Of a DNA stretch of 38,063 bases, positions 33,043 to 34,527 are shown in pieces (the stretch's first letter is position 1; each line of letters begins with the position of its first letter). The position numbers and the translations under genes were made by a program. The notes beneath the pieces were generated by a model. That model worked only from the letters and a program-made list of their open reading frames with translations, was not told the origin of the DNA and did not search any database. Source of the stretch: an uncultured Pelagibacteraceae bacterium (GTDB taxonomy: Bacteria; Pseudomonadota; Alphaproteobacteria; Pelagibacterales; AG-422-B15); NCBI GenBank assembly GCA_902619105.1, contig CACNCV010000005.1, positions 1 through 38,063 of the forward strand, written 5' to 3'.

Positions 33043-34356
33043 CTATGCTGCATCAAGAGCATTTTTGAGGTCTTCGATAATGTCATCAATATGTTCTATG
33101 CCTATTGACAACCTCACATAACTTGGATTTACACCAGCTGACTCCATATCTTCATCTGATAATTGGGAGTGAGTTGTGGAAGCTGGATGTATCGCCAAAC
33201 TTCTTGCATCACCAATGTTGGCAACATGATAAAACATATTCAGGTTATTTATGAACTTTTCACCACTCGCCTTACCTCCTTTGAGTTCTATGCCACATAG
33301 TGCGCCGTGACCTCCTTTGAGATATTTGTTAGCTCTTTCGCCTGCTTCTCCCTCATCAAGACCGGCATATATAACTCGTGAAACCTTATTATGGCTTGAG
33401 AGATACTCCGCAACCTTTGCAGCATTGGAACAGTGTTTTTCCATCCTTAAAGATACAGTTTCTAAACCTTGAATTATTTGAAAGGCACTTTGAGGAGGAA
33501 GAGCGGGACCTAAGTCTCTTAGCCCAACAAATCTGGCTCTTACAATATAAGCAATAGGACCAACAGCTTTAGCAAATTCAGTCCATATCATACCGTGATA
33601 ACTTGGATCAGGATTATTAAGCATAGGTTGTCTCTTAGGGTCTTTTGCCCAATCAAATTTACCACTATCAACAATGATTCCACCAATTGTTGTACCATGA
33701 CCACCTATGAATTTTGTAAGTGAATGCACAACAATAGTTGCGCCATGTTCAATTGGCTTACAAATAACTGGCGCTGCAGTATTATCGACAATGAGAGGAA
33801 TATTATATTCATCCCCAATATCCGCAACTTCTCTAATTGGAAAGACTTTTAGTTTAGGATTAGGTAAAGTTTCAGCATAATAAGCACGAGTATTATCATC
33901 TGTCATTTTTCTAAAACTTTCAGGATCTGTTGGGTCTGCAAATCTGACTTCTATTCCTAAATCCTTCATCGTATTGGCAAATAAATTCCATGTTCCACCA
34001 TATAAATCTGTAGAACTCACTATATTATCTCCCGACTTTACCAAGTTTTGAATACTCAGCATTGAAGCTGATTGACCAGAGCTTACACATAGAGCACCCA
34101 CGCCACCTTCCATTGCAGCGACTCTTTTTTCGAGAACATCAACTGTAGGGTTCATTATTCTTGTATAAATATTACCAAAATCTTTAGCTCCAAATAAGTT
34201 AGCTGCATGTTCAGTGTTATGAAACTGATATGAAGTTGTTTGATAAATTGGAACAGCTACTGACGTTGTAGAAGGGTCACTTCTGTAATCACCTCCATGT
34301 AATGCAATTGTTTCAGGGTTTACAGAATCTGCTGGATTAAATTTATTTTTTGCCAT
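33043..34356 (-). CDS. metY: O-acetylhomoserine sulfhydrylase
   Basis: PLP enzyme that makes homocysteine from O-acetylhomoserine and sulfide, the direct-sulfhydrylation route to methionine. The 437-residue length (over 420) and the sequence pattern favour MetY over MetB/MetZ. Seen: RIMNPTVDVLEKRVAAMEGG at about 66-85, the PLP lysine K215 in VVHSLTKFIGGHG, and SSGQSASML near 92-100. AGAGG (34364-34368, minus strand) is a good Shine-Dalgarno, 7 bases before the ATG. The gene has the window's only long leader, with an apparent SAM-type switch and a terminator, so it is probably repressed by the end product of its pathway. hom, 2.4 kb away, supplies the homoserine branch. Confidence 0.94.
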   Translation of the reverse strand: MAKNKFNPADSVNPETIALHGGDYRSDPSTTSVAVPIYQTTSYQFHNTEHAANLFGAKDFGNIYTRIMNPTVDVLEKRVAAMEGGVGALCVSSGQSASMLSIQNLVKSGDNIVSSTDLYGGTWNLFANTMKDLGIEVRFADPTDPESFRKMTDDNTRAYYAETLPNPKLKVFPIREVADIGDEYNIPLIVDNTAAPVICKPIEHGATIVVHSLTKFIGGHGTTIGGIIVDSGKFDWAKDPKRQPMLNNPDPSYHGMIWTEFAKAVGPIAYIVRARFVGLRDLGPALPPQSAFQIIQGLETVSLRMEKHCSNAAKVAEYLSSHNKVSRVIYAGLDEGEAGERANKYLKGGHGALCGIELKGGKASGEKFINNLNMFYHVANIGDARSLAIHPASTTHSQLSDEDMESAGVNPSYVRLSIGIEHIDDIIEDLKNALDAA

Positions 34357-34381
34357 TTTTTTACCTCTATTTATATTTTCT

Positions 34382-34480
34382 TCGAGTTTTACAGCAAATA
34401 AAAAAACCGCATCATAATACTATGTGCGGCTGATGGCTTAGCTGTATAAGTCCGCAAGCTGTATTAAACTCGACAATATA
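34382..34480 (-). ncRNA. Candidate SAM-responsive riboswitch in the metY leader (SAM-II/SAM-V-like, divergent)
   Basis: Read on the minus strand, the leader has a core GUUUAAUACAGCUUGC (34469-34454), a short GGAC, then UUAUACAGCUAAG (34448-34436). The UUUAA, UUGC and GCUAA blocks occur in the same order and with similar spacing as in the SAM-II aptamer and its SAM-V relative, where the first loop forms a pseudoknot with the GCUAA strand. UUGC and GC of GCUAA can pair here. The outer P1 helix is weak (about GUC/GAC), so class membership is uncertain. A terminator and a competing antiterminator follow. An additional 14-bp stem (34382-34395 with 34458-34473) encloses the switch. Ligand is inferred from metY and from the core pattern. 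Confidence 0.55.
34400..34429 (-). terminator. Intrinsic terminator in the metY leader
   Basis: On the minus strand CCGCA-CAUA-guau-UAUG-a-UGCGG forms a 9-bp hairpin with one bulged A (forward 34407-34429), followed by seven U residues (forward 34400-34406). The same CCGCA (34425-34429) can instead pair with UGCGG at 34452-34456, giving an antiterminator. Position between promoter and start codon makes it an attenuator. Confidence 0.8.
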
Positions 34481-34527
34481 TTGAATAACACTCTATGACT
34501 TATGTAAAGCGTAATAATTATAAATGT

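Follow-up and report, generated by a model that had tools for sequence, protein, structure and literature searches.

The leader of metY in the stretch of DNA analysed here (38,063 nucleotides, an entire contig of a 1.24-Mb genome; below, the window) is best read as a SAM-II-type riboswitch with a short P1 helix that would switch metY off by transcription termination, with SAM as the predicted ligand. We assign this reading a probability of about 0.8. The computations support the similarity to SAM-II, two-sided changes in P1, a conserved core, a terminator and, in leaders of the window's type (group A), an outer helix formed with a strand past the terminator; SAM as the ligand, the direction of the switch and the role of the outer helix are what we infer. 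An undescribed class is not needed to explain the leader. That the standard model overlooks a short-P1 SAM-II of this kind suggests that SAM control is under-counted in the host's group, which we take to be SAR11. SAR11 bacteria, which rank with the most abundant cells of the ocean, depend on reduced sulfur compounds. MetY can finish the step taking reduced sulfur into methionine, according to the available text of PMC5069961.

The gene was identified by its protein, which scores 602 bits against TIGR01326 (O-acetylhomoserine aminocarboxypropyltransferase/cysteine synthase; cut-off 495). The features of the locus, in the direction of transcription, are listed below.

34480..34508, minus strand: probable metY promoter, TTTACA (34508-34503), 17 nt, TTCAAT (34485-34480), found by eye
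34472..34474, minus strand: P1 5' strand GUC, pairing with GAC at 34452-34450
34458..34473, minus strand: outer helix 5' strand UCGAGUUU-aa-UACAGC, overlapping P1, L1 and P2
34464..34468, minus strand: L1 block UUUAA, from the sequence and relatives
34454..34459, minus strand: P2 5' strand GCUUGC (includes UUGC), invariant in 25 distinct leaders of the family
34452..34456, minus strand: antiterminator strand UGCGG, pairing with 34429-34425
34450..34452, minus strand: P1 3' strand GAC, from the motif count among relatives
34436..34442, minus strand: P2 3' strand GCUAAGC with bulged U at 34440, six pairs with GCUUGC
34407..34429, minus strand: intrinsic terminator hairpin CCGCACAUA-GUAU-UAUGAUGCGG, from the fold
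34400..34406, minus strand: U-tract of seven U, from the sequence
34382..34395, minus strand: outer helix 3' strand GCUGUAAAACUCGA, just past the terminator and present only in read-through RNA
34364..34367, minus strand: Shine-Dalgarno-like GAGG, from reading the sequence
33043..34356, minus strand: metY, O-acetylhomoserine sulfhydrylase (NCBIfam TIGR01326)

Judging by the promoter found by eye, metY transcription probably starts near 34474-34476, and a CTTTAC box resembling that of this promoter recurs in the leaders of relatives. The position is uncertain because the consensus promoter scan names a different promoter: TTTACA-17-TTCAAT was not listed, and TTCATA-17-TATAAT at 34556-34528 was proposed instead. 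Between metY and rplM there is also a near-dyad, GGTATTATAATACA (34538-34525), each strand of which contains TATAAT; it might serve as a promoter in both directions. Relatives, including some without the riboswitch, carry comparable dyads upstream of metY.

An earlier sequence-only reading had proposed a divergent SAM-type riboswitch here, with the blocks UUUAA, UUGC and GCUAA in the order of SAM-II and SAM-V. All three are present in this order at 34468-34464, 34457-34454 and 34442-34438. The list of blocks conserved in SAM-II is in part that of the same reading, and we presume that UUGC pairs with GCUAA in P2 of the window as it does in SAM-II.

Among the 41 complete metY copies of the family, 27 have leaders carrying the core and a terminator with CCGC/GCGG arms; the proposed arrangement of a divergent SAM-II-type aptamer and a terminator before metY thus recurs in homologues. 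Twenty of these leaders belong to group A (L001-L020), five to genus g2 (L041, L047-L050) and two to genus g3 (L042, L043). The other leaders comprise nine with a hairpin only (group B: L022, L024-L030, L051), four with neither element nor hairpin (L021, L023, L044, L045), and one cut by a contig end (L046). The 25 distinct sequences of the 27 leaders differ in spacers and loops but not in GCUUGCGGAC, CAGCUAAGC, CCGC or UGCGG; UUU, UUGC, GCUAA, CCGC and UGCGG are thus identical across three genera. The AA of UUUAA is variable (UUUGA in g2, UUUUU in g3, and UUUGA in the metX elements detected by Rfam). Group A has one extra G (34469) ahead of UUU, giving GAGUUU versus GAUUU in the other sequences of the motif count described below.

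Searches with the Rfam covariance models for SAM-II and SAM-V, the check attached to the sequence-only reading, gave no match in the leader at gathering scores. Relaxing the limit to E 10 brought up neither model in the leader or in ten related loci, where the Rfam scans gave weak unrelated matches only; the SAM-II (RF00521) cut-off of 36 bits was thus not reached. Among the matches listed, RF00521 gave 14.9 and 14.8 bits on two recognizable metY elements of the sister family; such weak matches are uninformative alone, because at E <= 10 such a match also turns up in 13 of 14 control genomes. The window's genome contains one SAM-II above the Rfam cut-off (44.7 bits; C1:162628-162704, minus strand), before a gene that we call metX from reading its protein rather than from a family search.

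We rely on two covariance models whose E-values, as the tool itself states, are rough. R1 was built from seven distinct metX-type leader sequences above Rfam's SAM-II cut-off, and R2 from these seven and nine metY leaders of the sister family; neither includes a metY leader of the window's family. Within the window the leader comes out on top both with R1, filters off (19.0 bits, E 8.5e-4; runner-up 11.6 bits, E 0.16), and with R2 (21.7 bits, E 2.6e-4; runner-up 10.2 bits, E 0.46). Over the whole genome the support is modest: R2 gives the leader E 0.0084, and it is outscored by a partial match of 25 nt, due to chance, inside coding sequence (22.2 bits). Over 52 loci at E up to 10, R1 marks 24 of the 27 element-carrying metY leaders (E 0.004 to 1.5), missing L011, L042 and L043, and none of the nine hairpin-only loci; its chance matches start near E 0.15, and the weaker single leader matches mean little. 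R2, run on the family's 53 genomes with E up to 1, recovers 25 of these leaders, all but L011 and L042, and again none of the nine. The leader fails the Rfam threshold for RF00521 and passes models made from SAM-II elements of the same order, and we have lowered the claim of formal membership to that extent. As to class, the SAM-II side of the original proposal is supported by models blind to the family's metY leaders, but SAM-V does not fit.

The window's P1 consists of three base pairs, GUC:GAC; metY leaders of the sister family have GCC:GGC, and the element before mmuM in one genome has ACC:GGU. P1 was counted by motif because the MAFFT alignment of the three genera, left unused for these counts, is out of register by one column at P1. 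The search covered 105 loci and retained 99 hits, 29 of them distinct. It lost L014 (GUCAAG lies outside the pattern), the bhmT element of L036, and L196; L052 and L053 were outside the search, and L164-L193 are the 30 best R2 hits, a biased sample. Since the filter kept hits with at least two of the three pairs, except L011, the paired share is no test, and two-sided changes alone count. At pair 1, 27 sequences have G-C and one (before mmuM) A-U, and in one (L011) the pair is broken; pair 2 occurs as C-G (18 sequences) or U-A (11); at pair 3, 27 sequences have C-G and one U-G, L011 again being broken. The changes are thus two-sided at pairs 1 and 2, and few in evolutionary terms: one clade change and one single case. 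P1 is lost in one of the 18 distinct group A rows (L011). P1 had been described as poorly formed; it is a helix of three base pairs that differs on both sides from that of the sister-family leaders.

P2, the antiterminator and the terminator are invariant in group A and show no covariation there. The UUGC/GCUAA pairs of P2 are present and identical in all 18 distinct rows, and the eight scored terminator pairs are present in all 18 without variation. The 3' strand of P2 is aligned to GCUAA by the SAM-II-trained models and is invariant in the 25 distinct leaders.

As had been observed from the sequence, UGCGG at 34456-34452 and a second UGCGG at 34411-34407 can both pair with CCGCA at 34429-34425. 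The terminator hairpin folds with -9.6 kcal/mol. A simple terminator scan of the window did not report it, in our reading because the bulged A in the stem breaks the scan's pattern. The antiterminator shares bases with P2, so the two are mutually exclusive, and in the window it is extended by UAAUAC (34466-34461) pairing with GUAUUA (34420-34415). When the window RNA ends before the 3' arm of the terminator, the UGCGG:CCGCA pairing has a probability of 0.97; when the arm is included, the terminator is the predicted fold (RNAfold models neither the pseudoknot nor bound ligand). In six other leaders folded, the probability of UGCGG:CCGC is 0.03 or less. In L011, L012, L042 and L043, UGC(A/G)GCU pairs with AGCCGC(A), overlapping P2, with a mismatch in L011 and L012; in L043 this antiterminator-like pairing persists as the predicted fold even with the 3' arm of the terminator. 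L041 and L047 have other nascent folds, not holding the terminator arm as proposed for the window; in L047 the P2 pairs themselves are part of the nascent fold. The OFF-switch logic suggested earlier is hence clear for the window sequence and plausible in four relatives, but folding does not show it in two.

The switch would work as follows. With SAM, L1 and the pseudoknot P2 (GCUUGC:GCUAAGC) would form; P2 would take UUGC and release CCGCA, and the terminator would form. Without SAM, the 5' half of the aptamer would pair with the 5' arm of the terminator (UGCGG:CCGCA and, in the window, UAAUAC:GUAUUA), and RNA polymerase would continue. In the read-through RNA the strand following the U-tract would then pair with the 5' half of the aptamer over 14 bp. 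With this outer helix in place, the aptamer of the finished mRNA would be unable to refold, and the 5' end of the mRNA would be closed.

The outer helix, absent from the sequence-only reading, joins 34473-34458 with 34395-34382 in 14 base pairs, two A being bulged. Folding the whole leader to minimum energy gives this helix and not P1 (z -2.2; 7 of 200 shuffles are as stable). The energy of the duplex is -16.8 kcal/mol in the window and ranges from -10.5 to -16.8 kcal/mol in the 20 group A leaders, with a shuffled mean of -6.2. Each of the 18 distinct group A rows keeps 10-14 of the 14 pairs; alignment pair 21-95 is A-U in 11, G-U in three, G-C in two and unpaired in two (L003 and L007, which use another register).

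Clade-specific co-evolution of the two strands was tested and rejected, as g2 and g3 strands do not prefer their own partners. The 5' strands of group A have a mean of -14.7 kcal/mol with their own 3' strands, -9.6 with those of g2 and -11.5 with those of g3; for g2 the values are -9.8 (own) and -9.8 and -10.8 (foreign), and for g3, -8.7 (own) and -12.1 and -13.2 (foreign). The fraction of shuffled 3' strands (single-base shuffles) reaching the mean of the set is 0.00125 for group A, 0.099 for g2 and 0.26 for g3. Support for the outer helix is confined to the window's genus, and it is weak in g2 and g3. In group B the same place, starting with GUCGAU in eight of nine leaders, folds as a hairpin without the terminator and most of the core. 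Two-sided changes occur at four of its 23 predicted pairs, one of them (columns 10-52) through the divergent L025 only, and the hairpin fold of L029 has z -3.9. By its position and first bases, this hairpin would be the same helix as the outer helix.

The outer helix should not affect the termination decision, because its 3' strand lies after the U-tract. Less surely, it could act on the read-through RNA by competing with P1, L1 and P2. The promoter guess suggests that the helix may also protect the mRNA 5' end, although the consensus scan names another promoter. We tentatively propose, with rather more doubt than confidence, that the post-terminator strand is a functional part of the switch: it would capture the 5' half of the aptamer after read-through, make the ON decision irreversible in the mRNA and close its 5' end, and part of the genus would later have lost the sensor and terminator and kept the helix. 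If so, such a strand is a simple means to make a riboswitch decision irreversible.

Translational effects were looked at separately. In the read-through leader with the first 36 nt of metY, forcing the aptamer unpaired lowers the mean accessibility of GAGG in the window from 0.40 to 0.24; in ten group A leaders accessibility falls by 0.07 to 0.28 in seven, stays about the same in L014 and rises in L003 and L007. These shifts are too weak to claim a translational effect. In g2 leaders L047-L050, a UUCGAUU that follows the terminator is complementary to GAUCGAA around AAAGGAG, and their pairing can hide the Shine-Dalgarno sequence, whose accessibility in these leaders is 0.17-0.21; this masking pairing competes with the outer helix.

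One of the closest known systems is transcriptional SAM-II (RF00521, SAM_alpha), exemplified by metZ of Sinorhizobium meliloti in the available text of PMC9373788: block order, pseudoknot, a terminator after the aptamer and a sulfhydrylase-type target are shared. The window leader differs in its 3-bp P1, in the GC:GC pairs of P2 stacked directly on UUGC:GCUAA, in being missed by the Rfam model and in the extra post-terminator strand. As far as the available texts go, other alphaproteobacteria are known to have SAM-II with predicted terminators ahead of genes of the metY or metZ type (PMC4239095, PMC9373788), in Rhizobiales and Rhodobacterales the core target of SAM_alpha is metY (PMC4239095), and one survey places SAM_alpha in these two orders only (PMC4239095, PMC9373788). 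The metX SAM-II of the window's own genome shares CAGCUUGCGG, CAGCUAA and a terminator with CCGC/GCGG arms; side by side, the metX leader reads GCGCCGAUUUGAGCACAGCUUGCGGGCGC...GCAGCUAA and the window leader GUCGAGUUUAAUACAGCUUGCGGAC...ACAGCUAA. Unlike the window, it has a P1 of 6-7 bp, a longer spacer to GCAGCUAA, and a start codon about 10 nt past the U-tract, which leaves no room for an outer strand. In the Pelagibacter tandems of SAM-II and SAM-V, as covered by portions of PMC9481103, PMC2704228 and PMC11508383, the SAM-II element likewise comes first, and P1 is equally short in the metY leaders of the sister family; the window, however, has a terminator after the aptamer and no SAM-V match. 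There are 149 such tandems, and in the original 120 SAM-II always lies ahead of a terminator stem (PMC9481103, in part). For Ca. P. ubique, the parts available give SAM-II at bhmT and metX and SAM-V at bhmT, mmuM and metY (PMC5069961), and tables mark the metY and mmuM regions as SAM-V (PMC2704228). The outer helix would be what is new in the metY leader, its role being predicted.

Several other explanations have to be weighed against a short-P1 SAM-II switch. The leader could be chiefly a 5'-terminal mRNA hairpin, the outer helix, protecting or timing the metY mRNA, with the SAM-II blocks a relic. The nine genus relatives with a hairpin here, 4 of whose 23 predicted pairs show two-sided changes, the fold of L029, and the window's minimum-energy fold with the outer helix instead of P1 would agree with this; but the core is invariant in the 27 terminator-bearing leaders while the spacers change, which is not expected of a relic, and we consider the explanation unlikely. 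It is quite unlikely, too, that a SAM-II-like fold of a new class senses another ligand (SAH or methionine) or none. The extra L1 nucleotide, the 3-bp P1 and the contiguous P2 could be taken in this sense: the leader falls below Rfam detection, GAGUUU is confined to group A, and P2 has no internal loop ahead of its GC:GC pairs. However, g2 and g3 share this core and terminator and have GAUUU spacing, and the sister-family metY leaders form a bridge to the metX elements.

A SAM-V riboswitch (RF01826) would share the block order, and SAM-V does precede metY in the sister family. The two are related SAM-binding pseudoknots whose cores are closely superposable (available text of PMC6061858). Yet the window leader has no RF01826 match, and in the search of 97 genomes none was found at E <= 0.001 in the 43 of the window's genus, many of them incomplete. 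SAM-V typically lies within ten nucleotides of the start codon (PMC2704228, in part); here GCUAA ends at 34438 and the start codon begins at 34356, about 80 nt away with the terminator between, so the aptamer is not at the ribosome-binding site. With the metX SAM-II models fitting as well, SAM-V is very improbable. Chance resemblance, with an ordinary terminator or attenuator before metY, is hardly credible, even though, across the genome, the leader does not outscore the best chance match. The match is full-length and lies in the leader of the expected gene, and P1 has two-sided changes; a core invariant over three genera, variable spacers and the first rank given by blind models all argue for a resemblance to SAM-II beyond chance.

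The same kind of short-P1 SAM-II also precedes known SAM-V at metY and mmuM in genome G058: a SAM-II-like element stands directly before SAM-V at metY (L194, G058:C1:1005600-1006000; SAM-V 52.1 bits) and at mmuM (L195, G058:C1:732700-733050; 44.1 bits). The 30 best R2 hits, a biased sample, include 28 sister-family loci, and all but one of these (27) have a SAM-V motif within 90 nt. Between the two elements no clear terminator hairpin was seen by eye, but in L194 and L040 AGG is followed by six consecutive U. Another SAM-II-like element (L196, G046:C1:87500-88000; 36.6 bits with R2) looks translational, as its UCC could pair with a GGAGG immediately ahead of the start of the gene that follows. 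In most of the metX-type leaders L054-L083 the terminator loop CUUAGUUG could pair with CAGCUAAAG of the aptamer. In L076-L083 the terminator arms are CCACC/GGUGG and the CCGC:GCGG pairing is lost; these leaders may use another antiterminator.
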